Made by a program: the position numbers and the translations under genes
NCBI GenBank assembly: GCA_003140075.1
Contig: PLIO01000101.1
Coordinates: 1 to 61,065 of the forward strand
DNA: 61,065 bases
Direction: 5' to 3'
Source of the DNA: Acidobacteriaceae bacterium
GTDB taxonomy: Bacteria > Acidobacteriota > Terriglobia > Terriglobales > Acidobacteriaceae
Notes under the pieces: generated by a model
Told to the model about the DNA's origin: nothing
The model's input: only the letters and a program-made list of their open reading frames with translations
Database searches by the model: none
Shown: positions 41,774 to 59,158 of the stretch, one piece after another
How the letters are laid out: every line of letters starts with the position of its first letter
How positions within the stretch are numbered: position 1 is the stretch's first letter

Positions 41774-42754
41774 ATGGTGCCAAATAGCCAGGGAAAGACG
41801 TTGCTTTTGCTCAAGCCGCGCGGGTTCTGCGCCGGCGTGGTCCGCGCCATCGACGTTGTCCGCATCGCCCTCGAGGCCTTCGGCCCGCCCATCTATGTAC
41901 GCAAGGAAATCGTCCACAACAGCTTTGTAGTGGACGAACTACGCGGCAAGGGCGCCATCTTCGTCGATAGCGAAGATGAAGTTCCCAACGGCGAGCGCGT
42001 CATCTACAGCGCGCACGGCGTTTCCCCCGAGGTGCGCGAACACAGCGCCCGCCGCGGCCTGCGCGTGATCGATGCCACTTGCCCCCTGGTCACCAAGGTC
42101 CACGTCGAAGCCGTCAAGTTCGCCAAAGAGGGTTATTCCCTGATCCTCATCGGCCACCACGATCACGACGAAGTCATCGGAACGCTCGGCGAAGCTCCGC
42201 TCGTAACCCAAGTGGTTGGCACTCCGGAGCAGGTCAAGTCACTCTCCGTCCCGGACCCGAATCGCGTGGCCTATCTAACCCAGACCACGCTCAGCCTGGA
42301 TGAAACCAAAGATATTATCGCTGCCCTCAAGAGAAAGTTTCCCAACATCAAAGGCCCCGCCGCGCAGGATATTTGCTATGCCACCGAGAACCGCCAGGTA
42401 GCCGTGAAGCAGGTCGCCTCGGAAGCGGATCTGCTGCTAGTCGTGGGCTCCGAAAACAGTTCCAATTCCAATCGTCTGGTTGAAGTGGCCCGCAACCTCG
42501 GCACGAACGCGCATCTCATCGATAGCTACAAAGATATTGAGTCTCAGTGGTTGCTGAACGTGAAAACCATCGCGCTCACTGCCGGCGCTTCGGCGCCGGA
42601 ATGCCTGGTGGAGGAAACCATGAAGTTTCTCGCCACCAAGGGTTTCGACAACGTGCAGGAACTCGAAGTGATGCCGGAAAACGTCCGCTTCGGCCTGCCG
42701 CCGGAGATTGTCGAGGCCATCGCCGCCGCTCCGGCCAGCGCTACCGCGGACTAA
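41774..42754 (+). CDS. ispH: 4-hydroxy-3-methylbut-2-enyl diphosphate reductase
   Basis: A 326-residue [4Fe-4S] enzyme, the last step of the MEP pathway, making IPP and DMAPP. The three cluster Cys are present: Cys19 in PRGFCAGV, Cys103 in DATCPLV, Cys201 in DICYATENRQ; the His residues in KEIVHNSFVV and GHHDHDEVIG and the Glu/Asn/Ser binding set (SENSSNSNRL) are also seen. It is 15 bp upstream of the squalene-hopene cyclase gene, tying C5 supply to hopanoid synthesis. The function is secure. Confidence 0.97.
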   Translation: MVPNSQGKTLLLLKPRGFCAGVVRAIDVVRIALEAFGPPIYVRKEIVHNSFVVDELRGKGAIFVDSEDEVPNGERVIYSAHGVSPEVREHSARRGLRVIDATCPLVTKVHVEAVKFAKEGYSLILIGHHDHDEVIGTLGEAPLVTQVVGTPEQVKSLSVPDPNRVAYLTQTTLSLDETKDIIAALKRKFPNIKGPAAQDICYATENRQVAVKQVASEADLLLVVGSENSSNSNRLVEVARNLGTNAHLIDSYKDIESQWLLNVKTIALTAGASAPECLVEETMKFLATKGFDNVQELEVMPENVRFGLPPEIVEAIAAAPASATAD

Positions 42755-42769
42755 CGGAGATGCTTATCG

Positions 42770-44734
42770 ATGGATACAAACTCCCCTGACGCAAACTTAG
42801 CCTCCGAACCACAACTTCGCTTCGGCAAGATCGACGGATTATTCGCCCGCGTGGAGGCGGCCATGTCCGCCGCCCGCAAGCTTCTCTTCTCCGCCCAGCA
42901 TGAAGACGGCTATTGGTGCGGCGAACTCGAAGCTGACACCACACTGGAGTCCGATTACATCCTCCTACACACGCTGCTAGGCACGGGCGATCCCGAGCGT
43001 TTCCGCAAAGCGGCCAACTGGATCGTTCAGCATCAGAACGAAGACGGCGGCTGGAGCATCTATCCCGCGGGACCGTCGAACGTCAGCGCGTCGGTAAAAG
43101 CGTATTTCGGCCTGAAGCTGGCGGGATACAAAACCGATGATCCCGTACTCCACCGCGCCCGCAAGAAGATCCTCGAACTCGGCGGCGTCACCGAGGTCAA
43201 TACCTTCACCAAAATCTATCTGTGCTTCTTCGGCCAGTACGACTACGACGCGGTGCCCGCCATCCCGCCCGAGATCGTCCTGTTTCCCAAATGGTTCTGG
43301 TTTAACATCTACGAAATTTCTTCGTGGTCCCGAGCCATCCTGGTCTCGCTTTCCATCTGCTATGCCAAAAAGCCCTTCAAGAAGATTCCCCGTGAAATGG
43401 GGGTCGAGGAATTGTTTCTTGGCGGCATGCAGAAGTCCCGCATGCACCTGCACTGGTCCAGGAAGCTGATCTCGTGGCGCAATTTCTTCCTTTGCATGGA
43501 CCGCATGACTCATTGGTTTGAGCGCGTCCACATCCGCCCGCTGCGTTCGGTCGCTCTCAAGAGCGCCGAGAAGTGGATGCTGGAACGCTTTGAGATGAGC
43601 GACGGTTTGGCCGGCATCTATCCCTCCATCATGAACTCGATCATCGCCATGCGTTGTCTCGGTTACTCGGTCGACGATCCCCAGCTGATCCGTGCGATGG
43701 ATGAGTTTGAGAAGCTCGGCATCGAGGAGGCCGAAACCTTCCGCATGCAGCCCTGCATGTCTCCCGTATGGGATACGGCTTACGCCATGTTTGCCCTCGG
43801 CGAAGCCGGAGTACCCGCGAACGATCCCCGCATCGTCAAGTGCGCCGATTGGATTCTGCAGAAGCAGGTACGCAATCCCGGCGACTGGCAGGTCAAGAAC
43901 AAGCACGGCAAGCCCGGCGGATGGTACTTCGAGTTTAACAATGAGTTTTATCCCGATGTGGATGATACCGCCATGGTTTGCCTGGCCCTCAGCCGGGTTG
44001 AACATCCCAACGGACGCTACCAGCGCGAGTCGGTTCAGCGGGCGATTGATTGGGTCTTGTCCATGCAGTGCAAGAACGGCGGCTGGGCCTCCTTCGATAA
44101 AGACAATGATCGCATGGTATTCCAGCACATGCCCTTTGCCGATCACAACGCCATGCTTGATCCCGCCACAGTAGATATCACGGGACGCATCCTCGAGATG
44201 ATGGCGGCTTACGGCTACGACAAAAACCATCCCGCCGTAAAGCGCGCGATTAAATTCCTCCGCAGCGAACAAGAACCAGACGGAAGCTGGTTCGGGCGGT
44301 GGGGCGTGAACTTTATCTACGGCACCGCGTTGGTGCTGCGCGGCCTGGAGGCGGTTGGCATGGATAATCACGAACCCTGCGTCCAGCAGGCCGCGGAATG
44401 GCTGCGCATGGTGCAGAATCCGGACGGTGGTTGGGGTGAGAGCGTGGGATCGTATGACGATCCCACGCTGCGTGGCGTTGGGCCGAGCACCCCTTCGCAG
44501 ACGGCGTGGGCGATTCTGGGAATCCTTGCCGTCGGCGATACGCGCAGTGATTCCGTGGCTCGCGGCATCGCTTACCTGCTCCGCACGCAAAAGGACGACG
44601 GTTCATGGGATGAACTTTATTGCACGGGCACGGGCTTCCCGCGCGTCTTCTATCTGAACTATCACCTCTACCGCCAATACTTCCCGCTGCTCGCGTTAAC
44701 GACTTACGCGAAAGTGATGGAGAAACAGGGCTAG
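42770..44734 (+). CDS. shc: Squalene-hopene cyclase
   Basis: A 654-residue monotopic membrane enzyme that folds squalene into hopene and hopanol. The catalytic motif DVDDTA is at 396-401. Several QW-type repeats (for example QNEDGGWSIYPAG, MQCKNGGWASFDKDN, QEPDGSWFGRWGVNFIYGT, QNPDGGWGESVGSYDDP and QKDDGSWDELYCTGTGFPRVFYLNYH) span the two alpha-barrels. Length is usual for bacterial SHC. It lies in the operon ispH-shc, with the rest of the hopanoid genes behind it after a P-loop ORF. It is also called hpnF. Confidence 0.97.
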   Translation: MDTNSPDANLASEPQLRFGKIDGLFARVEAAMSAARKLLFSAQHEDGYWCGELEADTTLESDYILLHTLLGTGDPERFRKAANWIVQHQNEDGGWSIYPAGPSNVSASVKAYFGLKLAGYKTDDPVLHRARKKILELGGVTEVNTFTKIYLCFFGQYDYDAVPAIPPEIVLFPKWFWFNIYEISSWSRAILVSLSICYAKKPFKKIPREMGVEELFLGGMQKSRMHLHWSRKLISWRNFFLCMDRMTHWFERVHIRPLRSVALKSAEKWMLERFEMSDGLAGIYPSIMNSIIAMRCLGYSVDDPQLIRAMDEFEKLGIEEAETFRMQPCMSPVWDTAYAMFALGEAGVPANDPRIVKCADWILQKQVRNPGDWQVKNKHGKPGGWYFEFNNEFYPDVDDTAMVCLALSRVEHPNGRYQRESVQRAIDWVLSMQCKNGGWASFDKDNDRMVFQHMPFADHNAMLDPATVDITGRILEMMAAYGYDKNHPAVKRAIKFLRSEQEPDGSWFGRWGVNFIYGTALVLRGLEAVGMDNHEPCVQQAAEWLRMVQNPDGGWGESVGSYDDPTLRGVGPSTPSQTAWAILGILAVGDTRSDSVARGIAYLLRTQKDDGSWDELYCTGTGFPRVFYLNYHLYRQYFPLLALTTYAKVMEKQG

Positions 44735-44759
44735 TTGCCAGTACCCAGTTGCCAGTTTT
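44733..44759. repeat. Heptanucleotide repeat, left flank of the P-loop ORF
   Basis: Units AGTTGCC, AGTACCC, AGTTGCC, AGTTTTC. It begins inside the shc stop codon. It is the inverted partner of 45224-45257. Confidence 0.8.
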
Positions 44760-44782
44760 CTTCCCTCGGCTTAGTCGGTTCT

Positions 44783-45223
44783 ATGGTTAAGGAGATTGTG
44801 CTGATAGCAGGCCTTCCGGGTTGCGGGAAGACAACCCGTCTTTGTCGCATGTGTCGAGACGGCTGGCTGATCTTCGACGATTTCAAGAGTGACGCCTTCG
44901 AACACGACAGCGCTTTTCGAAAGTCTCGAAAGTTCCGCGCGCTGGTGATCGGGCTCAGAGACGGTCTGAGATGTGCCGTTGCGGATATCGATTTTTGCGA
45001 TTCGGGTTCTCGATCCGAAGCTAGCGACGTCTTGCGTACGGAGATTCCGGGTTTGAATCCCAGATGGGAGTTCTTTGCCAACGACCCTATCTCCTGCGAG
45101 GCGAATATACGAGCCCGAAATCGTTCCTGTCTTCAGGACGACTTGGATTGTCTTGCAAAGTACTGCCGCTCATACCATATTCCCGAGGGTTCGATCGTCC
45201 TCCCCGTTTGGCAGAGACTATGA
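44783..45223 (+). CDS. P-loop NTPase, small kinase-like
   Basis: A 146-residue protein with a Walker A motif GLPGCGKTT at residues 10-18 (VLIAGLPGCGKTTRLCRM) and an acidic segment (LIFDDFKSD) that could be Walker B or a substrate-binding Asp pair. The rest is Cys- and Arg-rich. It resembles small nucleotide or nucleoside kinases, but no family is clear. It starts at ATG 44783 and ends exactly where the downstream heptamer array begins. It interrupts the hopanoid operon between shc and hpnA and is framed by inverted repeats, so it may be a late arrival. Confidence 0.65.
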   Translation: MVKEIVLIAGLPGCGKTTRLCRMCRDGWLIFDDFKSDAFEHDSAFRKSRKFRALVIGLRDGLRCAVADIDFCDSGSRSEASDVLRTEIPGLNPRWEFFANDPISCEANIRARNRSCLQDDLDCLAKYCRSYHIPEGSIVLPVWQRL

Positions 45224-45260: not shown

Positions 45261-46247
45261 TTGCTAGCTTTCGTCACAGGCGCAACCGGATTCCTCGGCT
45301 CCCACGTAGCCCGCGTTCTATCGGAGCAGGGCGCCGACCTCCGCCTGCTCGTCCGCCCCACCAGCAACCTGAAAAATCTCGCAGACCTCAAGGCCGAAAC
45401 CGCGACCGGCGATCTGCGCGATTCCGCGTCCCTCGAAAAAGCCATGGCGGACTGCGAGGTCGTTTTCCACGTCGCCGCCGACTACCGGCTCTGGGTGCGC
45501 GATCCGGAAGAAATGTACCGCTCGAACGTCGAAGGCACGCGGGCCATCCTGCAAGCCGCGCGCAAAAACGGCGTGCGCTGCGTCGTCTACACATCCAGTG
45601 TCGCCACCATGGGCTTCACCGGCAACGGCCGTCCGGCAAACGAAGATTCGCCGGTTTCGCTCGCCGACATGATCGGCCACTACAAGCGCTCCAAGTTCAT
45701 GGCGGAACAAGTTGCCCTGGAAGCCGGCCGCAGCGGCATGCGAGTCGTGACCGTCAATCCGACGACTCCCGTGGGCGAGCAGGACATCAAGCCCACTCCC
45801 ACGGGAAGAATTATCGTAGACTTCCTGAAGCGCAAGTTCCCCGCGTACGTCGAAACCGGCTTGAACCTGGTGGACGTTCGCGAATGCGCGCGCGGACACG
45901 TCGCCGCACTGGAGAAAGGCAAGAGCGCCGAGCGCTACATCCTGGGCGGAGAAAACCTTACGCTGAAACAGATTCTGGATAAGCTGGGCGCAATCTCCGG
46001 CTTGCCTTCGCCGAAAGTAAAGTTGCCGTACTTCGTTGCCTACGCAGCCGGCGCAGTGGATCAAACCATATCCGGCCGCCTGCTCGGTCGCGAGCCCCGC
46101 GCCACCGTCGAAACCGTGCGCATGGGAAAGAAAAAGATGTGGGCCAGTTCCGAGAAAGCCGAACGCGAGTTGGGATGGAATACAATCCCGGTCGAGGGCG
46201 CTCTGCGGCGTTCGGTCGAGTGGTTCCGGACCAACGGATATGCCTAA
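45261..46247 (+). CDS. hpnA: Hopanoid-associated sugar epimerase HpnA
   Basis: A 328-residue NAD-dependent epimerase/dehydratase of the extended SDR type. The TGATGFLG loop is at about residues 6-13, HVAADYRLWV and the catalytic YKRSK (about 138) follow, then NPTTPVGEQDIKPTPTGR, a block typical of HpnA. HpnA is found in most hopanoid clusters and its exact reaction is not settled. The start is set at TTG 45261 (LAFVTGATG) because the family starts just before this loop; the frame upstream reads through the repeat. It overlaps hpnG by 8 bp. Confidence 0.9.
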   Translation: MLAFVTGATGFLGSHVARVLSEQGADLRLLVRPTSNLKNLADLKAETATGDLRDSASLEKAMADCEVVFHVAADYRLWVRDPEEMYRSNVEGTRAILQAARKNGVRCVVYTSSVATMGFTGNGRPANEDSPVSLADMIGHYKRSKFMAEQVALEAGRSGMRVVTVNPTTPVGEQDIKPTPTGRIIVDFLKRKFPAYVETGLNLVDVRECARGHVAALEKGKSAERYILGGENLTLKQILDKLGAISGLPSPKVKLPYFVAYAAGAVDQTISGRLLGREPRATVETVRMGKKKMWASSEKAERELGWNTIPVEGALRRSVEWFRTNGYA

Positions 46248-47016
46248 AATCGCCATCGTAGCCGCACTTGAGCGCGAAGTCGTCGGCTTTACCAAGAGCT
46301 GCCGCCGCGTCGAGCGGGCCTACGAGGGCCGTGATTTTGCCTTTTACGAGCAAAACGACAACGTCGTCGTCTGCGGCGGCATCGGCCCGGAGGCAGCGCG
46401 CCGCGCCGCCGAAGCAGTCATCGCGTTGTATCAGCCCGAGTTGTTGCAGTCCGTGGGTTTTGCCGGAGCTCTGAATGCGGAACTGCGCGCAGGCGATCTT
46501 TTCACGCCGTCGGTTGTCATCGATGCCCGCGACGGCAGTCGCATTCCTGTCGAGGGCGAACCCCAAACCGACCAACGCTCTCTGGTAAGCTTCATGGCTG
46601 TGGCGGGAGCTCAGCAGAAAGCAAGTCTGGCCCAAGCCTACGGAGCCCAGGCAGTGGATATGGAAGCCGCCGCCGTTGCGGTCGCCGCCCGCGTCCATGG
46701 CATTCGGTTCGGTACTACCAAGGTCATCTCCGACGAACTAAACTTTGAAATGCCCGGCATGGACCGCTTCATCGACGCCCAAGGCCGTTTTGAAACCGCC
46801 AGCTTCGCGGGATTCGTAGCGCTGCGCCCCTGGCTCTGGATCCGCGTCGCCCAGCTGGCCATCAACAGCCGCAAGGCGGCGAAGATACTGGCTGAACATC
46901 TGCTGCGCTTCCGCCAGCAACTGAGCCAAGCCCCCGGCCGGGTGCCAGGAACAGTCCCGTTGTCTCCGCAGCCGACCGGAGTAACCAACTCCTCGCACGC
47001 CGGAGGTCGCAAATGA
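46240..47016 (+). CDS. hpnG: Hopanoid-associated nucleoside phosphorylase HpnG
   Basis: A 258-residue protein of the purine nucleoside phosphorylase / MTA-SAH nucleosidase fold. Key parts are IAIVAALEREV, LLQSVGFAGAL and the nucleoside-binding Glu in AVDMEAAAVAV. In hopanoid synthesis HpnG removes adenine from adenosylhopane to give ribosylhopane (phosphorylated or free). The start at ATG 46240 overlaps the hpnA stop by 8 bp, so translation is coupled. Its stop overlaps the next gene start (ATGA). Catalytic residues are kept, so it should be active. Confidence 0.9.
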   Translation: MPKIAIVAALEREVVGFTKSCRRVERAYEGRDFAFYEQNDNVVVCGGIGPEAARRAAEAVIALYQPELLQSVGFAGALNAELRAGDLFTPSVVIDARDGSRIPVEGEPQTDQRSLVSFMAVAGAQQKASLAQAYGAQAVDMEAAAVAVAARVHGIRFGTTKVISDELNFEMPGMDRFIDAQGRFETASFAGFVALRPWLWIRVAQLAINSRKAAKILAEHLLRFRQQLSQAPGRVPGTVPLSPQPTGVTNSSHAGGRK

Positions 47017-47555
47017 GACTGCGGTTGCTCGCCCCGTTACTCTTAGGGATCGCCATCCCTCTGGCTGCTCAGTCCAACGCCGCTCCGGTTTACGCCGAAA
47101 GTTTTCGCCAGGGTTCGACTCACGTCGTCGAAGAGACCTTTGAGGCCAAACTCACGCCGCAAGACTCGGCTTACCGCGAGCGCATCAAAGATTCCCACGG
47201 GGACGACCGCTACGTGTTCTCAATTCTTCCCCGAATCCCGGAGGGCGACGTCAAAATTACCAACTGGCAGGCGCGGCTCGCCGATCTGCACCACCCCATC
47301 TACGAAAACGTGCTGATGACGTCCCCACAACCCTCGGACGATCCCAAGGACGCACTCTGGCGTCTGGATCCCGGCGGCGCAGCACCGGTGCCACCCGGTG
47401 CCAAACGAATCATCAAAGTGGATGGTTTTTATGTCATCCTGCAGGTGAAGGCGTATCACTTCACCCCTCCGGATTCGCCCTATCTCGATTCGATGACGGT
47501 CGCCGTTGAGTTCACCAATACAGACCCGAGAAAGGCGGACGCCTCCCAGAAGTAG
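47013..47555 (+). CDS. Secreted protein in the hopanoid operon
   Basis: A 180-residue protein with a signal peptide (MRLRLLAPLLLGIAIPLAAQ). The mature part is polar with EETFEAKLTPQDSAYRERIKDSHGDDRYVFSIL and a beta-rich end (AKRIIKVDGFYVILQVKAYHF). No family is recognised. It overlaps the hpnG stop codon by 4 bp, so it is co-translated with it and probably works in the same pathway or at its membrane target, for instance as an extracytoplasmic partner of hopanoid traffic. This role is inferred from position alone. Confidence 0.75.
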   Translation: MRLRLLAPLLLGIAIPLAAQSNAAPVYAESFRQGSTHVVEETFEAKLTPQDSAYRERIKDSHGDDRYVFSILPRIPEGDVKITNWQARLADLHHPIYENVLMTSPQPSDDPKDALWRLDPGGAAPVPPGAKRIIKVDGFYVILQVKAYHFTPPDSPYLDSMTVAVEFTNTDPRKADASQK

Positions 47556-47703
47556 GCTTCGGTTGTTTCTAGGCACCTCCGATACAAAGTGAAGGTGAAA
47601 CGCATCTAAACCAATAGTCATCTAACGAGATTCGGCCAAAGCGAAAATGGGGATTGCCCGACAACTCGAGATCCAGGACCGACGCCAGTCCGTTCCCGCG
47701 ACC

Positions 47704-48798
47704 ATGATCGCGGCGGTTTACCGGGGAGTAAACGACGTCCGCCTGGAAACGGTTTCCGTCCCGGAGATCGGCCCCGGCGAGCTGCTGCTGCGCGTGCATA
47801 CCTGCGGGGTTTGCGGCACTGACCTCAAGAAAATTGCCTCCGGATCACATTCCGCGCCGCGCATCTTCGGTCATGAAACCTCCGGCGTGGTGGCTGCCGT
47901 CGGCGCCGGAGTGCGAACCTTCACCCCCGGCGACCGCATCGTCGTTTTTCATCACATCCCTTGCCGCCAGTGCTATTACTGCCGTCAGAAGACATTCGCC
48001 CAGTGCGCCACTTATAAGAAAGTGGGTTGCACTGCCGGCTTCGAGCCCTCCGGCGGCGGCTTCGCGGAATACGTCCGGGTCATGGATTGGATCGTTGATC
48101 GGGGAACCGTCAAAATCCCGAACGGCGTCTCGTTCGAACAGGCCTGTTTCGTGGAACCGGTCAATACCTGCATGAAGGGAATCGAGGCCCTGAACCTGCA
48201 GCCAGCCGAAACCGTGCTGGTCATCGGGCAGGGCCCCATCGGCATAATTCTTGCCATTTTGGCCCGCCGGGCGGGGGCCAGCGTTATTACTTCCGATTTG
48301 TATGCCGAGAGGCTTAAAATAGCTAAAAGCCTTGGATTACAGAATACGGTCGACGCGTCGAAAGATGACGTGGTGAACTCAATTCGCGCACAGACCGAGG
48401 GGCGCGGCGCCGACGCCGTGATCCTGGCAGTGGGAAGCAACGCATTGGTTCGTCCCGCAATGGATGCGGCCCGTCCGGGCGGGCGTGTGTTGTTGTTTGC
48501 GCAAACCCAGCGGGGAGAGGTGGTCGTAGACCCGGCCGCCATTTGCGTCGATGAAAAGGCGCTGCTGGGCTCTTATAGCGCCTCCGTGGATTTACAGGAT
48601 GAGGCAGTTCGTTTTGTCATGGGCCGAGAAATGAACCGGGAGATGGACTTGGAACGCTTGATTAGCCACCGATTTCCGCTCGAGGAGGCGCCGCGGGCGT
48701 TGGAACTCGCAGCCCATCCCCAGCCAGCGTCGATGAAAGTCGTGATTCAGCCTGGGACTAGCTGGAAACGCGAGTCTTGGGAAGGAAACCAGCAGTGA
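47704..48798 (+). CDS. Zinc-dependent MDR dehydrogenase (polyol-dehydrogenase-like), first of a pair
   Basis: A 364-residue medium-chain dehydrogenase. Catalytic zinc ligands are the Cys in GVCGTDLKKI and the His and Glu in FGHETSGVV; the structural zinc site is CRQCYYCRQKTFAQC. The Rossmann domain carries VIGQGPIGIILAI. The pattern (long lobe, CxxCxxCxxxxxxxC) fits sorbitol/threonine dehydrogenases, which act between an aldose or ketose and a polyol. The ATG at 47704 fits the family start (MIAAVYRGVNDVRL); the frame extends to an ATG at 47647. It overlaps the next dehydrogenase by 4 bp. It lies in the hopanoid locus. Confidence 0.9.
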   Translation: MIAAVYRGVNDVRLETVSVPEIGPGELLLRVHTCGVCGTDLKKIASGSHSAPRIFGHETSGVVAAVGAGVRTFTPGDRIVVFHHIPCRQCYYCRQKTFAQCATYKKVGCTAGFEPSGGGFAEYVRVMDWIVDRGTVKIPNGVSFEQACFVEPVNTCMKGIEALNLQPAETVLVIGQGPIGIILAILARRAGASVITSDLYAERLKIAKSLGLQNTVDASKDDVVNSIRAQTEGRGADAVILAVGSNALVRPAMDAARPGGRVLLFAQTQRGEVVVDPAAICVDEKALLGSYSASVDLQDEAVRFVMGREMNREMDLERLISHRFPLEEAPRALELAAHPQPASMKVVIQPGTSWKRESWEGNQQ

Positions 48799-49844
48799 AT
48801 GGAAAAATGACGGCTGCCGTCCTGTACGGCAAAGAAGATCTAAAAATTGAGAGAGTGCCCATCCCTCGCGTCGAAAAGGGGGAAGTCCTCGTCAAAGTGC
48901 AGGTGGCTCTTACCTGCGGCACCGATCTCAAAGTTTACCAGCGCGGCTACCACGCCCGCATGATCGTTCCCCCGGCGCTCTTCGGCCACGAACTGGCCGG
49001 CGTGATCGAGGAAGTCGGCGAAAACGTGCTCAGCTTCAAGAAGGGCATGCGCGTGGTGGCGCTCAATTCCGCCCCCTGCCAGATGTGCTTCTACTGCTCC
49101 AAGCATCAGGAGAATCTCTGCGAAGACCTGCTCTTCAATAACGGCGCATATGCCGAATACATCCGCGTGCCCCGGCGCATTGTGGACGCCAATATGCTGG
49201 TCATCCCGCCCAACGTCAGTTTCGAAGACGCGGCCATGACCGAACCTCTGGCCTGCGTGCTCCGCGGCTTGCACGAGACCGGCGTCGAAATCGGCGACAC
49301 CGTCACCATCATCGGCGGCGGTCCCATCGGACTGATGTTTGTGCAGGTGGCGCGCGCCATCGGTTGCAACGTGATCGCGGTGGTGAAGCGCGACGAGCAA
49401 GTCGTAGCCGCCAAGCACATGGGCGCTCATGAAATTGTGCAGACCACCAAGGTTCAGGATGTGGTGGATGCCGTGCGCGCTCTCACTCCGCAAAAGCGCG
49501 GCTGCGATGTCGTGATCGAAGCGGTCGGCCGTCCCGAAGCCTGGGAGTGGACCGTCGAAATGGTCCGCAAAGGCGGTACCGTCAACTTCTTCGGCGGCTG
49601 CGCCAGCGGCAGCAAAGTGCAGCTCGACACCAACCGCCTGCATTATTCCGAAATCACGCTCAAGGCCACGTTCCATCACACGCCGGAAACCGTGCGCCGC
49701 GCCTTCGGGCTGATCGCGGCCAAGAAAATTCGCCCCACCGACTACATCACCGGCGAAGCTCCGCTCTCCAGCTTGCAGAAGGTGCTGCGCCACATGCTGA
49801 ACCGCGGCGGCGACATAAAAACGGCCATCATTCCCGGCCACTGA
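48795..49844 (+). CDS. Zinc-dependent MDR dehydrogenase (polyol-dehydrogenase-like), second of a pair
   Basis: A 349-residue paralogue of the preceding enzyme: LTCGTDLKVY, FGHELAGVI, CQMCFYCSKHQENLC (structural zinc) and IIGGGPIGLMFVQVA. Both proteins have complete catalytic and structural zinc sites and so should both be active, perhaps as a heteromer. The GTG at 48795 overlaps the stop of the first gene (GTGA); an ATG at 48807 is an alternative. Reduction of an open-chain ribose end to a polyol is a fitting reaction in a hopanoid operon. Confidence 0.9.
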   Translation: MNGKMTAAVLYGKEDLKIERVPIPRVEKGEVLVKVQVALTCGTDLKVYQRGYHARMIVPPALFGHELAGVIEEVGENVLSFKKGMRVVALNSAPCQMCFYCSKHQENLCEDLLFNNGAYAEYIRVPRRIVDANMLVIPPNVSFEDAAMTEPLACVLRGLHETGVEIGDTVTIIGGGPIGLMFVQVARAIGCNVIAVVKRDEQVVAAKHMGAHEIVQTTKVQDVVDAVRALTPQKRGCDVVIEAVGRPEAWEWTVEMVRKGGTVNFFGGCASGSKVQLDTNRLHYSEITLKATFHHTPETVRRAFGLIAAKKIRPTDYITGEAPLSSLQKVLRHMLNRGGDIKTAIIPGH

Positions 49845-50155: not shown

Positions 50156-51112
50156 ATGCTTCTTTCAGCCTCCACTGATTCCCGCGTCCCAGCCGCCGCC
50201 GCGGCGCTCGGCTGGAGCCGGCTGCCCGCGGAATACGCAATCCCTGACTCGGCCCCTTCGCTCGAACAAGCCCAGGAATACTGCCGCCGCCTCGCCCGCA
50301 CCCACTACGAAAATTTTTTCGTCGCCACTTGGTTCCTCCCCAAACACCTCCGCCAGGATTTCCTCAACGTCTACGCCTATTGCCGCATCTCCGACGATCT
50401 GGGCGACGAAGTAGGCGACTCCGCGGCCGCGCTGGCGCTGCTCGACGAATGGCAAACCGAACTCGATGCCTGCTACGCCGGCACACCGCGCCATCCGGTT
50501 TTTGTTGCCTTAGCCGAGACCGTGCGCAAGTTCAATATTCCCCGGCACGAGTTTTCCGATCTCCTCATCGCCTTCCGTCAGGACCAGACCGTCACCCGTT
50601 TCGAAACGTTCGACGACGTCCTCGCCTACTGCCGTTACTCCGCCAATCCGGTCGGTCATCTCGTTCTCTACCTGTGCGGCTATCAGGATGCCGAGCGCCA
50701 GCAGCTTTCCGACTACACCTGCACTGCCCTGCAGTTGGCAAATTTCTGGCAGGACGTGAGCGTGGATTACGCCAAGGGTCGAATCTACCTGGCTCTCGAA
50801 GACCTGCGTCGTTATTCGGTGCCTGAGGATGATCTGGCGCAAAACCGCAACACGCCCGCCTTTTGCGAGATGATGAAATTTGAAGTGGCGCGTGCGCGCG
50901 ACTGGTTTGAGTGCGGCCTTCCGCTGGTTAAGAAAGTAGACAGAGCCCTGGCCGTAGACCTCGAACTCTTCAGCCGCGGCGGCCAGGAGATCCTGAATGC
51001 GATCGAGCGGCAGAATTACGCAGTTCTCGGACGCCGCCCGGTCATCTCCAAACCCCGCAAGCTTGCGCTGGTGGCCCGCGCCGCTCTGGGGAAGCTGCTG
51101 GGGAAACTGTGA
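50156..51112 (+). CDS. hpnC: Squalene synthase-like HpnC
   Basis: A 318-residue trans-prenyltransferase that converts presqualene diphosphate to hydroxysqualene. The two Asp-rich motifs are in YAYCRISDDLGDEV and FWQDVSVDYAKGR; CRYSANPVGHLVLYL is a conserved helix. Shorter than eukaryotic squalene synthase and without a C-terminal anchor, as in HpnC. It is read with hpnD, whose ATG shares a base with the hpnC stop. The ATG at 50156 has no clear ribosome binding site. Confidence 0.94.
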   Translation: MLLSASTDSRVPAAAAALGWSRLPAEYAIPDSAPSLEQAQEYCRRLARTHYENFFVATWFLPKHLRQDFLNVYAYCRISDDLGDEVGDSAAALALLDEWQTELDACYAGTPRHPVFVALAETVRKFNIPRHEFSDLLIAFRQDQTVTRFETFDDVLAYCRYSANPVGHLVLYLCGYQDAERQQLSDYTCTALQLANFWQDVSVDYAKGRIYLALEDLRRYSVPEDDLAQNRNTPAFCEMMKFEVARARDWFECGLPLVKKVDRALAVDLELFSRGGQEILNAIERQNYAVLGRRPVISKPRKLALVARAALGKLLGKL

Positions 51113-52071
51113 TGAGCGCAGGAGCGCAGCAAGTGACGATTCCGTGGACTCCCGCTCCGGCGCAGCTCACCATGGCCTATTCGGTGTGCCGCGGCATCAC
51201 CCGTTCCAACGCGAAGAATTTCTACTACGCATTTCTCGTCCTGCCCAAGCACAAGCGCCAAGCGCTGTGCGCCGTGTATGCCTTCATGCGGCGCTGCGAT
51301 GACATTGCCGACGACTCCAGCCTGTCCCTTGAGGAGCGCCGCTTCAAACTCGGTACCTGGCTGGACGCCTTGCACCGCGCCCAGCAGGGCGAACCCAGCG
51401 ACGATCCCATTCTGCTGGCTCTCACCGACGCGCAGCGCAGGTATACCATCCCTGCGGGTCTGCTCGACGAACTCGCCATGGGCACGGGCATGGATGTCGA
51501 ATCCGGAACTGACGGCCCCGCAGCCCAACCGTCCGGGAATCCCGCAGCCTTGCCCCTCACGGTCCAGTACAGAACCTTCGAAGATCTCAAAGTCTATTGC
51601 TATCGCGTGGCGTCAGTAGTCGGCCTCGTCTGCATTCACATCTTTGGATATCGCGATCCCGCTGCCGAGCCTTTAGCCGAGCAGTGCGGCCTCGCCTTCC
51701 AACTCACCAACATCATTCGCGATGTCAAAGAAGATGCCGCGATGGGCCGGGTTTATTTACCGGACGAAGACTTAGCCAAGTTCGGCCTTTCCGCCGGCGA
51801 CCTGCTTGCAAACCCCGATGCAGCCCGCTTTCGCCCGCTGCTCACATTAGAAGCCGACCGCGCCCGCGAGTTCTACCAGGCCGGCGACCAGCTCATTCCT
51901 TATATTTCGGAAGACAGCCAGCCCGCGCTGTGGATGCTGGTAAACATCTACCGCAAGTTGCTCGAAAAAATCGCCGAACGCCAGTACGACGTCTTCAGCG
52001 CTAAAGTAAGCTTGTCGGTGAGCGAAAAACTCCGCGTTCTAGGAAAGGGCTTTCTGCAGCGCCTCACCTGA
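51112..52071 (+). CDS. hpnD: Presqualene diphosphate synthase HpnD
   Basis: A 319-residue enzyme that joins two farnesyl diphosphates to presqualene diphosphate, the first squalene-specific step. Motifs: AFMRRCDDIADDSS and QLTNIIRDVKEDAAMGR (the two Asp-rich regions), and RSNAKNFYYAFLVLPKHKR near the start. The ATG at 51112 overlaps the hpnC stop by one base; a GTG at 51109 is possible. The short insert NPAALPLTVQYRTFEDLK with a Pro/Gly-rich lead (TDGPAAQPSGN) is a variable loop of the family. It is the substrate supplier for HpnC. Confidence 0.94.
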   Translation: MSAGAQQVTIPWTPAPAQLTMAYSVCRGITRSNAKNFYYAFLVLPKHKRQALCAVYAFMRRCDDIADDSSLSLEERRFKLGTWLDALHRAQQGEPSDDPILLALTDAQRRYTIPAGLLDELAMGTGMDVESGTDGPAAQPSGNPAALPLTVQYRTFEDLKVYCYRVASVVGLVCIHIFGYRDPAAEPLAEQCGLAFQLTNIIRDVKEDAAMGRVYLPDEDLAKFGLSAGDLLANPDAARFRPLLTLEADRAREFYQAGDQLIPYISEDSQPALWMLVNIYRKLLEKIAERQYDVFSAKVSLSVSEKLRVLGKGFLQRLT

Positions 52072-52110: not shown

Positions 52111-52184
52111 GTCATCCTGAGCGAAGCGAAGGACCCCATGTGTGCTTGCGGCCACTTCGGCGGCGCGAGGAGTTCTCACGGTGC
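52111..52184. repeat. GTCATCCTGAGCGAAGCG repeat, right of hpnC-hpnD
   Basis: Begins GTCATCCTGAGCGAAGCG and ends GAGGAGTTCTCACGGTGC. It is the shorter direct counterpart of 49887-49993. Confidence 0.75.
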
Positions 52185-52219
52185 CCACGGTTTTTGCTTC
52201 GACCGAGGACGCTCTTAGC

Positions 52220-53629
52220 ATGACTCAGAACTCAACCCAACCCACCGTAGCCATCGCCGGAGGCGGCCTCGCCGGTCTGGCCGCAGCCTGCGCCCTCGCC
52301 GAATCGCGCTTCCGCGTCACCCTGTTCGAGCGCCGACCCTACCTCGGCGGTCGCGCTTCCTCCTACCAACACCCCGGCACCGGCGAAGTTGTCGACAATT
52401 GTCAGCACGTCCTCTTTCGCCTCTGCACCAACTTGGTCGAGTTCTACTGCCGAATCGGAGTCGAAGAAAAAATCCGCTGGTACGATCAAATGACTTTCAT
52501 CGAGCCCGGCGGCCGCACCAGCGTCATGCACGCGTCTCCAATCCCCGCGCCGCTGCACACCGCGCCGTCTTTTCTCAAGTTTCCGTTTCTCAACGCGAAA
52601 GACAAATTCGCCATCTCCCGCGCCATCGCCGTCCTCACCCTTACTTCGCAACCCGACACCGGCCAGTCTTTTCTCTCCTGGTGTCAACGCCACGGTCAAA
52701 CCCAAAATGCCATCGAACGCTTCTGGAAGCCGATCCTGGTCAGCGCTCTCAGCGAAGACCTCGACCTGATTTCGATTTCCTACGCCGCGCAAGTCGTCCG
52801 CGAATCCATGAAGTCTCCCGCCGCCCGCCACATGGGCGTTCCCACCATTCCCCTCACCGACCTCTACAATCGTGCCGGAGATTACATTCGCGCCCGCAGC
52901 GGCGAGATCCGCTTCCGCAACTCGCTGGAAACTTTTTCTCCCGACCCCACTCAAGTGCGAATTCGCGTCAGCGAGAAAGAAGAAGCCTTCGACTATCTCG
53001 TTCTCGCCCTGCCCTTCGACGGCCTCGACCGCGTCCTCCCGCAGATTCCTGAAGCCATCCCGCTACGCGAAAACCTCACCCACTTCGAACCCTGTCCCAT
53101 CACCGGCATTCACCTCTGGTTCGACCGTCAAATCACCGCTCTCGACCACGCCGTCCTCCTCGACCGCACAATTCAATGGTTGTTCCACAAGTCGCGGCTT
53201 CTCGTTGCTCGCGGTACCGTTGCGACAGACTCAAGCGGCAGCTACATCGAACTCGTGGTCAGCGCCTCAAAAACCCTCATCGACAAATCCCGCGCCGAGA
53301 TCGTCGACCTCGCCTTGAAAGAAGTCCGCGAATTCTTCCCGGCGGCCCGCGCGGCCAATCTCGTAAAGTCCACCGTCATCAAGGAAGTCCATGCCACCTA
53401 CTCGCCCCGCCCCGGCATCGACGCCTACCGTCCCCCGCAAGCCACTGCGTGGCCCCGCGTCTTTCTCGCCGGAGATTGGACCGCCACCGGCTGGCCCGCC
53501 ACCATGGAAGGCGCCGTCCGCAGCGGGTATCTCGCCGCCGAATCCCTCACCCGCTCCGCTGGAATCAAAGACTCTCACTTCCTTGCGCCCGATCTGCCCG
53601 CTACCGGCTTCATGCGGTTCTTCGGATAG
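52220..53629 (+). CDS. hpnE: Hydroxysqualene dehydroxylase HpnE
   Basis: A 469-residue FAD-dependent amine-oxidase/phytoene-desaturase-type enzyme that reduces hydroxysqualene to squalene. The FAD Rossmann loop is AIAGGGLAGLAAACALAE (12-29), followed by RRPYLGGRASSY; the C-terminal FAD block is FLAGDWTATGWPATMEGAVRSGYLAA. The ATG at 52220 removes a 26-residue stretch derived from the preceding repeat. It completes the HpnD-HpnC-HpnE route from farnesyl diphosphate to squalene and is convergent with a nuclease-like gene 10 bp downstream. Confidence 0.94.
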   Translation: MTQNSTQPTVAIAGGGLAGLAAACALAESRFRVTLFERRPYLGGRASSYQHPGTGEVVDNCQHVLFRLCTNLVEFYCRIGVEEKIRWYDQMTFIEPGGRTSVMHASPIPAPLHTAPSFLKFPFLNAKDKFAISRAIAVLTLTSQPDTGQSFLSWCQRHGQTQNAIERFWKPILVSALSEDLDLISISYAAQVVRESMKSPAARHMGVPTIPLTDLYNRAGDYIRARSGEIRFRNSLETFSPDPTQVRIRVSEKEEAFDYLVLALPFDGLDRVLPQIPEAIPLRENLTHFEPCPITGIHLWFDRQITALDHAVLLDRTIQWLFHKSRLLVARGTVATDSSGSYIELVVSASKTLIDKSRAEIVDLALKEVREFFPAARAANLVKSTVIKEVHATYSPRPGIDAYRPPQATAWPRVFLAGDWTATGWPATMEGAVRSGYLAAESLTRSAGIKDSHFLAPDLPATGFMRFFG

Positions 53630-56560: not shown

Positions 56561-57094
56561 TCACCCGGCCAGCAGCGCCACACCCGCCGCCACAAGAGAA
56601 GCAGCAATCCACCGCCGCCGATCGACTTTCTCATGTAGAAAGATTTTGGCCGCGACGGCGTTGCCAATAAATGTTAGGGAAGCGGCGGCGGGAGCCACTA
56701 GGCTTACGTCTCCCCAGGAAAGAGCGAACAGCAGGCTGAAGAAGGCCACACCCATGGCCGTGACTCCGAGCAGAAAGTTAGGATTGCCCAGCGTCCGCCC
56801 GATCACCGCAACCAGGCCCACGCGCCGCCACAGCGCTCCCACATCCCCAACCTGCTTCATCGCCCGCGCCAGCAGCACATCGCCGATTACGGAGGCGAAG
56901 ACGATGGCAAGGATCGCGCTCCAGGTGTAGAGAACAGAAACGTGAAAAGATGAGCTCGAAGCAGCAATCGGCCGGGGCCCGAGCGACATCGCTCCGTAGC
57001 CGCGAAGCGGCGAAAGAATGCAGCCCACGGCGCAAGCCGTGGGGAATAATCGAGAGACGATCAAGCGCCGGAGGCGCGGAAGAAACCTCTTCAT
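56561..57094 (-). CDS. EamA/SMR-type small transporter half, second of a pair, with repeat-derived N-terminus
   Basis: A 177-residue membrane protein. The C-terminal four-helix part (WSAILAIVFASVIGDVLLARAMKQVGD; FLLGVTAMGVAFFSLLFALSW; SLVAPAAASLTFIGNAVAAKIFLHEKV; WIAASLVAAGVALLAG) is an EamA-type half transporter. The first 50 residues are not membrane-like: they are encoded by a palindromic element (CCCACGG / CCGTGGG, 57015-57040). The reading frame begins at ATG 57094, in the stop of the preceding half (ATGA). The functional start may be lower down. Confidence 0.7.
   Translation of the reverse strand: MKRFLPRLRRLIVSRLFPTACAVGCILSPLRGYGAMSLGPRPIAASSSSFHVSVLYTWSAILAIVFASVIGDVLLARAMKQVGDVGALWRRVGLVAVIGRTLGNPNFLLGVTAMGVAFFSLLFALSWGDVSLVAPAAASLTFIGNAVAAKIFLHEKVDRRRWIAASLVAAGVALLAG
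56990..57065. repeat. Palindromic repeat at the 5' end of the second EamA-type gene
   Basis: Contains CCCACGGCGCAAGCCGTGGG (57026-57045), a perfect 8-bp hairpin around CGCAAG, next to GCCGCGAAGCGGCG-type palindromes. The architecture (hairpin with short loop in a GC-rich element) is like the recN and hpnC elements. Confidence 0.55.
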
Positions 57095-57543
57095 GATTCC
57101 GCCCCACGCGAAAGCGCAGCGCCAACACTCTCAGGCGCGAGCACTGCATCGGGTTCGTGTTGTGAGTGCGTGGTAATCTCCGGCCCGCCGGCGATAAATC
57201 CCACCCCTCCGGTGATCAACGCAATTCCCAGCCAGCGCAGCGGACTGACGTGCTCATGCAGCAGAAATCGAGCGACCAGCGCCAGCAGCACGTATCCCAG
57301 CGAAGTAGCCGGCAGAACGTAAGTAAGATCGGCCCAGGAAAGCGCGGTCATATAGGTTGCGAAGAAAGCCAGCAGCAGAAGAATTCCGATGGCGACCCAG
57401 GGATTGAGCACGGCGAAGATAACGCCCTGCAGATGATGGACGGAAATGTTGCCGGTCTGCTTCATCCCGTGCGAGAGCATGGAGTCTCCGGCCGCGGCGA
57501 AGACCGTGACTCCGGCCAACACAAGATACTTGCGAAAGTTCAC
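57091..57543 (-). CDS. EamA/SMR-type small transporter half, first of a pair
   Basis: A 150-residue membrane protein with four helices (YLVLAGVTVFAAAGDSMLSHGMKQTGN; GVIFAVLNPWVAIGILLLLAFFATYM; ADLTYVLPATSLGYVLLALVARFLLHEHVS; WLGIALITGGVGFIAGG). The PATSLGYVLLALVARFLLHE block is typical of EamA-type half transporters, which pair with a second half to make one transporter of the drug/metabolite superfamily. The second gene starts in this stop codon (ATGA). Substrate unknown; the pair recalls ArnE/ArnF in layout. Confidence 0.8.
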   Translation of the reverse strand: MNFRKYLVLAGVTVFAAAGDSMLSHGMKQTGNISVHHLQGVIFAVLNPWVAIGILLLLAFFATYMTALSWADLTYVLPATSLGYVLLALVARFLLHEHVSPLRWLGIALITGGVGFIAGGPEITTHSQHEPDAVLAPESVGAALSRGAES

Positions 57544-57694: not shown

Positions 57695-59158
57695 TTAGGC
57701 CTTGGCCAGTTCAGCAGCCTCGTCGCTGTGCTGCTTCACCAGCTTGTTGCGTTGCGAGCGCAGCTTCAGGAACGTCTTCGCTTCTTTGTAAAGCCGCTTG
57801 CGGTCGTTACTGTCAAAAGCGGCCTTCCTCAGGATGCGGAACACAGCCTTGGGCCGGAAATAATATTCGTCGTAAAAACGATGCACCGCGGAAAGAATGT
57901 CATCCGCCGGCAGCCCGGGATACTGGATGTGCGCCAGTTGATGCCCGCCTTCATCCACCATCTTGTTGTCGCCCACCATGAATCCGTTCTTCACGGCGTA
58001 ATCGTAAAGCTCCGTCCCAGGATACGCATGCGCCACGGAAACCTGAATGGTCTCCACGTCCAACTCCTTGGCGAACGCGATGGTGTTGTTAATGGTCTCC
58101 GGCGTCTCGCCTGGCAAGCCGAGAATAAAGTCGCCGTGGATGACCAGCCCAAGCTTGTGACAGTTCTTAGTGAACTGGCGGGCGTGCTCGAGAGTCGCGC
58201 CCTTCTTTATGTTCTTCAAGATCTGCTGATCGCCGGATTCGTAACCCACGATGAGGAGCCGGCAGCCGGCTTCCTTCATCGCCTTGAGCGTCTCGTAACT
58301 GGTAGTGACGCGCGAGGTGCAGGACCAGGTTAAACCCAGCGGCTTAAGCTTGGCGCACAACTCGACGGTGCGGGCCGCCTGGATGTTGAAGGTATCGTCG
58401 TCAAAGAAGAATTCTTTTACTTCCGGCCAGTACTTTTTGACCTTCGACATTTCCGCCGCAACGTCGTCAGTCGAGCGCTTGCGCCACGGATGTCCGCTCA
58501 AAGTTTGCGGCCACAGGCAAAACGTGCACTGCGCCGGGCAGCCGCGCGTGGTGTAGAGCGAGACATAAGGATTCAGCAGGAACGGCACGTTGTAACGGGT
58601 GACATCGAGATCGCGCTTGTAGACGTCGGTGACGTGGGGGAGCGCATCCAGATCCTGGATTTGCGGCGCATCCGGATTGTGCACGATCTTGTCGTCTTTC
58701 AGGAACGAGATGCCGGCAATGTCTTCCAGCGGCTTGCCCTTGGCGTAGTCGACGACGGCGTAGTCAAATTCTTTGCGGGCCACGAAATCGATCGAAGGAC
58801 AATCGCGCAGAGATTTTTCCGGAAGCACGCTCACGTGCGGTCCAACGAAAGCGATCTTGATCTTCGGGTTCGCCGATTTAATAGCTTTAGCGAGGCCGAT
58901 GTCACCGGGAAAGCCTGGAGTGGAGGTGAACAGCACGAGGAACTCGTAGTCCCTGGCAATTTCAATGGTCTGCTCGGCCGAAATATAGTGTGGCGGAGCG
59001 TCGAGTAGCCGCGCCCCTTCGAGCATTCCAGCGGGATAAGCCAGCCAGACCGGGTACCAATAACTCTCGATTTCGCGGGTGGCGGGCCAACGGGAGCCAG
59101 CGCCTCCATCGAAGTTTTCAAAGGACGGCGGGTTCAGAAATAGTGTTTTTAGAGGCAT
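57695..59158 (-). CDS. hpnJ: Hopanoid biosynthesis radical SAM protein HpnJ
   Basis: A 487-residue B12-binding-domain radical SAM enzyme. An N-terminal cobalamin-type Rossmann domain (FLNPPSFENFDGGAGSRWPAT, then FTSTPGFPGDIGLAKAI) precedes the radical SAM barrel with the [4Fe-4S] motif CPAQCTFCLWPQ (CxxxCxxC) and DDDTFNIQAAR. The N-terminal NPPSFENFDGG block and SYWYPVWLAYPAGML are typical of HpnJ, needed for the cyclitol-ether side chain of bacteriohopanetetrol. It is on the other strand from the hopanoid operon. Start ATG at 59158. Confidence 0.93.
   Translation of the reverse strand: MPLKTLFLNPPSFENFDGGAGSRWPATREIESYWYPVWLAYPAGMLEGARLLDAPPHYISAEQTIEIARDYEFLVLFTSTPGFPGDIGLAKAIKSANPKIKIAFVGPHVSVLPEKSLRDCPSIDFVARKEFDYAVVDYAKGKPLEDIAGISFLKDDKIVHNPDAPQIQDLDALPHVTDVYKRDLDVTRYNVPFLLNPYVSLYTTRGCPAQCTFCLWPQTLSGHPWRKRSTDDVAAEMSKVKKYWPEVKEFFFDDDTFNIQAARTVELCAKLKPLGLTWSCTSRVTTSYETLKAMKEAGCRLLIVGYESGDQQILKNIKKGATLEHARQFTKNCHKLGLVIHGDFILGLPGETPETINNTIAFAKELDVETIQVSVAHAYPGTELYDYAVKNGFMVGDNKMVDEGGHQLAHIQYPGLPADDILSAVHRFYDEYYFRPKAVFRILRKAAFDSNDRKRLYKEAKTFLKLRSQRNKLVKQHSDEAAELAKA

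Follow-up and report, generated by a model that had tools for sequence, protein, structure and literature searches.

Tandem zinc-dependent dehydrogenases of an acidobacterial hopanoid cluster: MDR2 as a candidate lineage-specific ribosylhopane reductase

Results and Discussion

In the hopanoid cluster of an Acidobacteriaceae bacterium (assembly GCA_003140075.1, contig PLIO01000101.1, a stretch of 61,065 nucleotides that we call the window), two overlapping genes downstream of hpnG encode zinc-dependent medium-chain dehydrogenase/reductase (MDR) proteins, here named MDR1 and MDR2. Our analysis suggests that MDR2, rather than the pair, is a candidate for the enzyme that converts ribosylhopane to bacteriohopanetetrol (BHT, or tetrol), and we regard it as a good and testable candidate that is unproven. 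In this proposal MDR2 may be an NADPH-dependent, lineage-specific ribosylhopane reductase with MDR1 as an accessory, an assignment that we make tentatively and that stops a little short of being probable. MDR2 would be a polyol-dehydrogenase-type zinc reductase that the hopanoid cluster of the window's class (Terriglobia) recruited; acting on the ribosylhopane that HpnG produces, it would reduce the open-chain carbonyl and so yield the bacteriohopanetetrol side chain. MDR1, an NAD(H)-type paralogue that can be lost, would contribute a second subunit or catalyse another redox reaction of this side chain. We infer the substrate, the direction of the reaction and this division of labour; the genes and their distribution are described below.

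Two intact zinc-dependent dehydrogenases with different cofactor sites

MDR1 (47704..48798, forward strand, 364 amino acids) runs from an ATG at 47704 to a stop codon ending at 48798, and MDR2 (48795..49844, forward strand, 349 amino acids) starts with a GTG at 48795 or an ATG at 48807, so that the two intact reading frames overlap by 4 bases. An alternative in-frame ATG for MDR1 lies upstream at 47647; all 12 of the aligned rows, the window among them, have the methionine encoded at 47704. Both proteins match ADH_N and ADH_zinc_N over the Pfam cut-offs, and in an NCBIfam scan neither reached the cut-off of any listed model. Alignment places the catalytic zinc ligands of MDR1 at C37, H57 and E58 plus E151 and the structural ligands at C87, C90, C93 and C101; the corresponding residues of MDR2 are C41, H65 and E66 plus E150, and C95, C98, C101 and C109. 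Among near-full-length sequences from the loci that we fetched, in which one species may be counted twice, the MDR1 ligands are kept in 104 of 104, one C87R excepted, and the MDR2-type ligands in 112 of 117 (a set that includes four distant sequences from families f31 and f44), with Asp replacing C41 in the other five. As judged by domains and zinc ligands, MDR1 and MDR2 are thus zinc-dependent medium-chain dehydrogenases, and the open reading frames (ORFs), Pfam matches and ligand alignment bear out an earlier note, made from the window's letters alone, which had described two overlapping zinc MDR genes with complete zinc sites. The five MDR2 sequences with Asp at the catalytic zinc fall into two groups, loci L120, L132 and L133 and loci L203 and L205. 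A Cys-to-Asp swap at the catalytic zinc is known from a halophilic glucose dehydrogenase.

NAD-dependent enzymes of this type carry Asp or Glu at the end of beta strand 2. MDR1 has D198 at this point in the window, and the column is acidic in 104 of 104 sequences (Asp in 103, Glu in 1). MDR2 of the window reads V197 K198 R199, the column is non-acidic in 115 of the 117 MDR2-type sequences, and the next residue is Lys or Arg in 114 of them. This difference points to an NAD(H)-type site in MDR1 and an NADP(H)-type site in MDR2. Reduction of ribosylhopane in cell-free preparations reportedly needs NADPH.

By profile, the best solved match of both proteins is the NADP(H)-dependent ketose reductase 1e3j, which is also the best match of MDR2 in single-sequence searches. 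MDR1 and MDR2 share with 1e3j and the sorbitol dehydrogenase group the fold, the catalytic zinc ligand pattern and the structural-zinc cysteines; they differ from it in sequence (~30% identity), in the acidic NAD(H)-type residue of MDR1 and in being encoded in tandem within a hopanoid cluster. Assignment to the sorbitol dehydrogenase/ketose reductase grouping is to be read with the fact that other MDR groups score close to 1e3j. Structural models of both proteins have 4ej6/4ejm as their top match and support the MDR fold only: 4ej6, a putative zinc-binding dehydrogenase from Sinorhizobium meliloti (4ejm is the form with NADP), has ~32% identity, neighbouring rows are close to it in Z, and a shared fold shows no function. 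The closest relative of MDR2 among the best 15 of at least 5000 plasmid matches is WP_242323970.1 of Rhodococcus opacus plasmid pLPS8 (46.8% identity; the next match has 35.7%), whose neighbours encode a DeoR regulator, a class II aldolase, an FGGY carbohydrate kinase and an MFS transporter, in what looks like an operon for sugar or polyol catabolism. The Rhodococcus protein lies on the same side of the tree as MDR2 (95/94) but, unlike MDR2, carries an Asp (by eye) in the cofactor column, the residue to be expected if it is a catabolic NAD enzyme. On pLPS8, in a gene table that is incomplete, no hopanoid gene is annotated within 12 kb on either side and no MDR1 partner beside it. With MDR1 as the query, the best 15 of 2422 plasmid records reach no more than 36.0% identity. 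It is plausible, we infer, that MDR2 began as a catabolic polyol dehydrogenase whose cofactor and reaction direction changed when the hopanoid operon captured it. The sugar- or polyol-type chemistry that had been predicted for the pair is consistent with these relatives, namely 1e3j by profile and the putative Rhodococcus operon.

The pair is linked to hopanoid genes throughout the class

Two samples were searched, one of 119 genomes from across the phylum Acidobacteriota and one of 161 genomes of the window's class, the latter with E limits of 1e-75 for MDR1 and MDR2 and 1e-40 for HpnH. In the phylum sample, MDR1 orthologues are present in 15 genomes (51-100% identity; the next match down is at 36%) and MDR2 orthologues in the same 15 (at least 51%; next 45-46%). 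HpnH was found over cut-off in 26 of the 119 genomes, among them 14 of the 15 with the pair, the exception being G113. The class sample has MDR1 in 104 genomes, MDR2 in 110 and HpnH in 121. HpnH is present in 108 of the 110 MDR2 genomes (Fisher p 2.5e-23, a descriptive value that ignores kinship), and the two without it, G160 and G176, are 85% and 81% complete. MDR1 and MDR2 are adjacent in 81 of 104 genomes, with a median gap of 21 bases, and in 65 of 102 genomes the distance from MDR1 to HpnH is no more than 8 kb. Twenty of the 23 non-adjacent pairs belong to genera g4, g81 and g83 of the window's family, and the other three (G131, G182 and G213) lie near a contig end.

Adjacency to hpnG was scored by calling HpnG with our own profile at more than 40 bits and counting it when it was on the strand of MDR1 and no more than 1.5 kb upstream; in other families, with GC-rich DNA, the ORFs around hpnG came from a codon-trained caller. 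HpnG precedes MDR1 in 17 of 17 loci picked across eight families (gaps of 32-168 bases), in 57 of the 66 named-genome loci with room among the matches listed (gap below 300 bases in 45) and in 10 of the 14 loci of the first batch, where the misses are three genomes of family f27 and genome G066. The named-genome set comprises at least 80 loci, all titled acidobacterial, of which 7 had no room and 7 had no MDR1 match above 400 bits, six of these lying at a contig start and one being in two pieces. Taken together, the co-occurrence with HpnH and the adjacency to hpnG make the association more than chance, and they argue for a strong hopanoid link of the pair within the class.

Eight of the nine misses in the named-genome set are rearranged loci in which hpnG is not upstream of MDR1 (L145, L149, L151, L152, L154, L155, L157 and L158). 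ispH and shc are oriented opposite to MDR1-MDR2-hpnC in 6 of the 8, and hpnG lies elsewhere in the genome in 7 of the 8.

MDR2 appears to be the core member

Split pairs and genomes with a single member separate the two genes. In genus g4, MDR1 stays behind hpnG in an ispH-shc-hpnH-hpnA-hpnG run in 6 of 6 genomes with a split pair (the start of the run is cut in one), and MDR2 precedes hpnC-hpnD-hpnE in all three such loci fetched. In five MDR2-bearing genomes of family f60, hpnG is followed directly by MDR2 (gaps of 49-148 bases), and a search at E 1e-75 found no MDR1 in them. Two other f60 genomes, G132 and G146, have HpnH without MDR2; the contig of G146 ends in hpnA. Because MDR1 was never found without MDR2 (0 of 104 genomes) and MDR2 is kept without MDR1 (6 of 110, with f60 as the clear case), MDR2 seems to be the core, indispensable member. 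These counts do not favour treating the two genes as equal partners, and an equal two-subunit enzyme as a fixed rule is rejected because the five f60 genomes keep MDR2 alone.

Joint absences of hpnG and the pair, like the f60 genomes, link MDR2 to hpnG. Genome G007, with a stated completeness of 100%, has shc and hpnH, with no hpnG match and no orthologue of MDR1 or MDR2, and its congener G211 carries hpnG, MDR1 and MDR2 in a complete run. In family f57, G129, G136, G192 and G216 keep hpnH-hpnA with no adjoining hpnG and no pair; their best HpnG-like matches reach at most 43 bits, G136 having no match at all, and the clustered HpnG proteins of four relatives in f57 score 145-249 bits. In these loci (L098, L099, L100 and L103 in f57, L093 in G007) adenosylhopane is a possible end product, as judged by gene content. 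Together these five joint absences belong to the 13 of 121 HpnH-positive class genomes that have no MDR2. Six others were still counted: G146, G171, G248, G256 and G260 (77-90% complete) end in the cluster and are uninformative, and G132, with HpnH, no HpnA nearby and no SHC found, is ambiguous. The last two of the 13 are G165 and G185, described below.

Two side observations concern these loci. In G007, two ORFs after hpnH resemble transposase pieces by eye. A second HpnG-like protein is encoded outside the cluster in f57, where G155 has both copies, and f27 too has HpnG-like genes at a distance from its cluster (L218, L219, L220, L221 and L222; L096 and L097); the three paralogues scanned (from G155, G216 and G256) score 84-90 bits against TIGR03468.

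Relation to published gene clusters

Clusters of hpnA-hpnG-ug1 and ug2-hpnC-hpnD-hpnE in Acidobacteria were described in 2017 (PMC5462960; here and below we draw on parts of that paper), so the gene association is not new, having been in print without a function. There ug2 is a Zn-binding alcohol dehydrogenase of ~350 amino acids with no function given; MDR2 fits ug2 in type, in length and in its position before hpnC, and MDR1 probably occupies the ug1 position after hpnG in cluster C. The same paper linked ug2 to squalene genes, proposed hpnA for the step from ribosylhopane to tetrol, and is inconsistent on ug2 in subdivision 3, which has it once in all and once missing from the cluster. In contrast to the link with squalene genes, f60 and the joint absences tie MDR2 to hpnG. 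The earlier note had held that no reductase gene was firmly assigned, and this still stands: a 2025 paper, in the part on which we draw, calls the enzyme for the step from ribosylhopane to bacteriohopanetetrol not established (PMC12583986), and the parts seen of open-access papers naming ribosylhopane assign no reductase gene, most subscription papers lying outside the search. As far as our searches show, the new arguments are the focus on MDR2, the cofactor difference, the evidence from f60 and the joint absences, and the sugar-operon relative.

Exceptions and the limits of the assignment

MDR2 shows the co-occurrence with HpnH and HpnG expected of a ribosylhopane reductase, with f27 lacking a clustered HpnG. 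Presence in every tetrol producer, as expected of a general enzyme, is not seen for the pair when HpnH stands in for tetrol production: the pair is missing from 12 of the 26 HpnH-positive genomes of the phylum sample, and the tetrol producer Chloracidobacterium thermophilum is described as having no ug2 (PMC5462960). MDR2 can therefore be at most a lineage-specific reductase, not a general one. The earlier proposal, which cast the pair as ribosylhopane reductase, called for a survey against hpnG and hpnH and named absence from most tetrol producers as grounds for doubt, thus survives in part. The link with hopanoid genes is strong in the class (108 of 110), and the pair is not universal in the phylum, where the feared absence is seen in part (the same 12 of 26, and C. 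thermophilum); MDR2 is favoured over the pair.

Besides these gaps, several observations weigh against MDR2 as the reductase. G165 and G185 have an intact shc-hpnH-hpnA-hpnG run followed by unrelated genes, with no MDR1 or MDR2, and conversely the three f27 genomes have hpnA-MDR1-MDR2 without a clustered hpnG. HpnG-like paralogues persist in three of the f57 genomes without the pair (G129, G192 and G216; 114-136 bits with our own profile), which weakens a strict loss of HpnG activity together with the pair, and G129 also retains HpnJ, which acts after tetrol in the published pathway. In G066 the pair (L042) adjoins a WYL-type regulator (by eye), QueF and a proline-dehydrogenase-like gene (under cut-off), and the shc-hpnH-hpnA-hpnG run sits elsewhere in the genome. 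Distant tandem MDR1-like/MDR2-like pairs occur in families f31, f33, f44 and f46, and two genomes, G078 and G098, carry such pairs with neither HpnH over cut-off nor SHC. In the tree, the MDR2 rows of the class group with G066 in a single clade (100/99), the MDR1 rows make up a second one (91/98), and each member of a distant pair comes out on the MDR1 or MDR2 side that corresponds to it, which implies that the tandem arrangement is wider than its use in hopanoid clusters. When MDR1 is searched as a single sequence, an alcohol dehydrogenase (4cpd) comes out as its best match among solved structures. Finally, sorbitol-type MDRs usually act on secondary alcohols, not on a C1 aldehyde.

A shared replacement reductase was sought directly after hpnG in families without a linked pair, and no common candidate was found. 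The next gene encodes a luciferase-like protein in f46 (Pfam); ORFs resembling isopentenyl-diphosphate isomerase (by eye) follow in f25 and f40, ORFs with weak profile matches to squalene/phytoene synthase in f24 and f47, and an HpnI-like ORF (by eye) and then HpnK in f38.

Alternative roles for the pair

The main rival holds that both enzymes tailor a nearly finished side chain, MDR1 oxidizing a hydroxyl with NAD+ and MDR2 using NADPH to reduce the ketone, either from the opposite face or at a different carbon, to give a stereoisomer or an otherwise tailored bacteriohopanepolyol (BHP). We consider this unlikely, though it deserves serious attention. Such a swap would account for the opposite cofactor-site types, for the joint presence of MDR1 and MDR2 in 104 of the 110 MDR2 genomes even where the genes lie apart, and for the lineage-specific distribution of the pair, and chemistry on secondary alcohols is the norm for sorbitol-type MDRs. 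A fixed two-step swap would, however, disallow the five f60 genomes that have MDR2 without MDR1, and the parts of PMC5462960 on which we draw mention no unusual tetrol isomer, in work whose method degrades the side chain.

Less likely again is the assignment suggested in PMC5462960, in which HpnA, a short-chain dehydrogenase/reductase annotated as a 'sugar epimerase' and encoded next to hpnG, is the ribosylhopane reductase and the pair acts otherwise in the hopanoid side chain. HpnA is indeed a frequent companion: of the 94 pair loci with room, the named-genome set being taken among the matches listed, 82 have hpnA no more than 3 kb upstream of MDR1, or of MDR2 in the case of f60 (by set 13/14, 16/17, 49/59 and 4/4, with misses at L042, L127, the eight rearranged loci, L188 and L198). 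HpnA also lies beside hpnH or hpnG in pair-less hopanoid loci of f2, f24, f40, f46, f47 and f61, and is reported from all BHP-making acidobacteria studied in PMC5462960. Locus L078 of f25, on the other hand, has hpnG and hpnH without HpnA.

We give marginally less credence still to the view that the pair is unrelated to hopanoids, an old tandem of polyol or sugar dehydrogenases settled in the cluster by chance: the distant pairs of G078 and G098 without hopanoid genes, the QueF and proline-dehydrogenase-like neighbours in G066 and the sugar-operon relative in Rhodococcus would suit it, but in the fetched loci with a split pair both halves are still found among hopanoid genes, and over 161 genomes MDR1 and MDR2 are present and absent together with HpnH. 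A role in squalene formation, as the link of ug2 to squalene genes might imply (PMC5462960), is disfavoured because MDR2 directly follows hpnG in f60 and because the pair-less genomes G129, G192, G216 and G007 keep SHC, which needs squalene (by an SHC search only, which found none in G136).

The hopanoid cluster of the window

The order of genes in the window is ispH, shc, a P-loop ORF, hpnA, hpnG, a short secreted-type ORF, MDR1, MDR2, hpnC, hpnD and hpnE, with hpnJ further on and on the opposite strand. All genes up to hpnE are on the forward strand. IspH (41774..42754), squalene-hopene cyclase (SHC; 42770..44734, TIGR01507), HpnC (50156..51112) and HpnE (52142..53629) score over their NCBIfam cut-offs, as does the radical SAM protein HpnJ on the reverse strand (57695..59158). 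HpnA (45267..46247) matches TIGR03466 with 492 bits, over the cut-off, its start being taken from the profile match; the HpnG-like nucleosidase/phosphorylase (46240..47016) matches TIGR03468 with 86 bits, under the cut-off of 187, and HpnD (51109..52071) scores 246 bits, under the cut-off of 279.

The P-loop ORF (44735..45223; by eye, no Pfam family) sits between shc and hpnA, at the place that hpnH takes in many relatives. HpnH itself is outside the window, and the same assembly carries its two parts at the ends of two other contigs. The short ORF with a signal-peptide-like start (47013..47555; by eye, no Pfam or NCBIfam family) overlaps the end of hpnG and is confined to close relatives; elsewhere hpnG usually abuts MDR1. 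The earlier note had placed the pair 150 bp after hpnG and a secreted-protein gene, a distance that is right for the secreted-type ORF (~150 bases from its end at 47555) and wrong for hpnG itself (~690 bases from its end at 47016).

Near hpnJ, two genes on the reverse strand (56561..57094 and 57091..57543) encode a pair of EmrE/ArnE-like small membrane proteins, the first of which alone has a weak NCBIfam ArnE match, under cut-off. An EmrE-like gene lies within 4 kb of hpnJ in 31 of 38 fetched hpnJ loci, mostly from close relatives. From this position the EmrE/ArnE-like pair is a candidate flippase for glycosylated hopanoids.

Conclusions

A large class of bacterial membrane lipids has bacteriohopanetetrol as its parent, and its fossil remains are used to read ancient sediments. 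With a gene candidate that occurs throughout a class of soil bacteria, the step from ribosylhopane to bacteriohopanetetrol becomes testable. As a side prediction, relatives without a clustered hpnG and without the pair may end their pathway at adenosylhopane, a lipid used as a soil marker. It is also possible, though we hold this with slightly more reserve than the assignment of MDR2 itself, that MDR2 is the first identified ribosylhopane reductase, a one-time catabolic polyol dehydrogenase that moved from NAD to NADP(H) at its cofactor site and was taken into the hopanoid operon of a single acidobacterial class, with the last step to tetrol being carried out by unrelated enzymes across lineages. 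The MDR2 candidate predicts that there is no single universal enzyme for this step, which would help to explain why, in the part of PMC12583986 on which we draw, no obvious further candidate is found near the alphaproteobacterial clusters.

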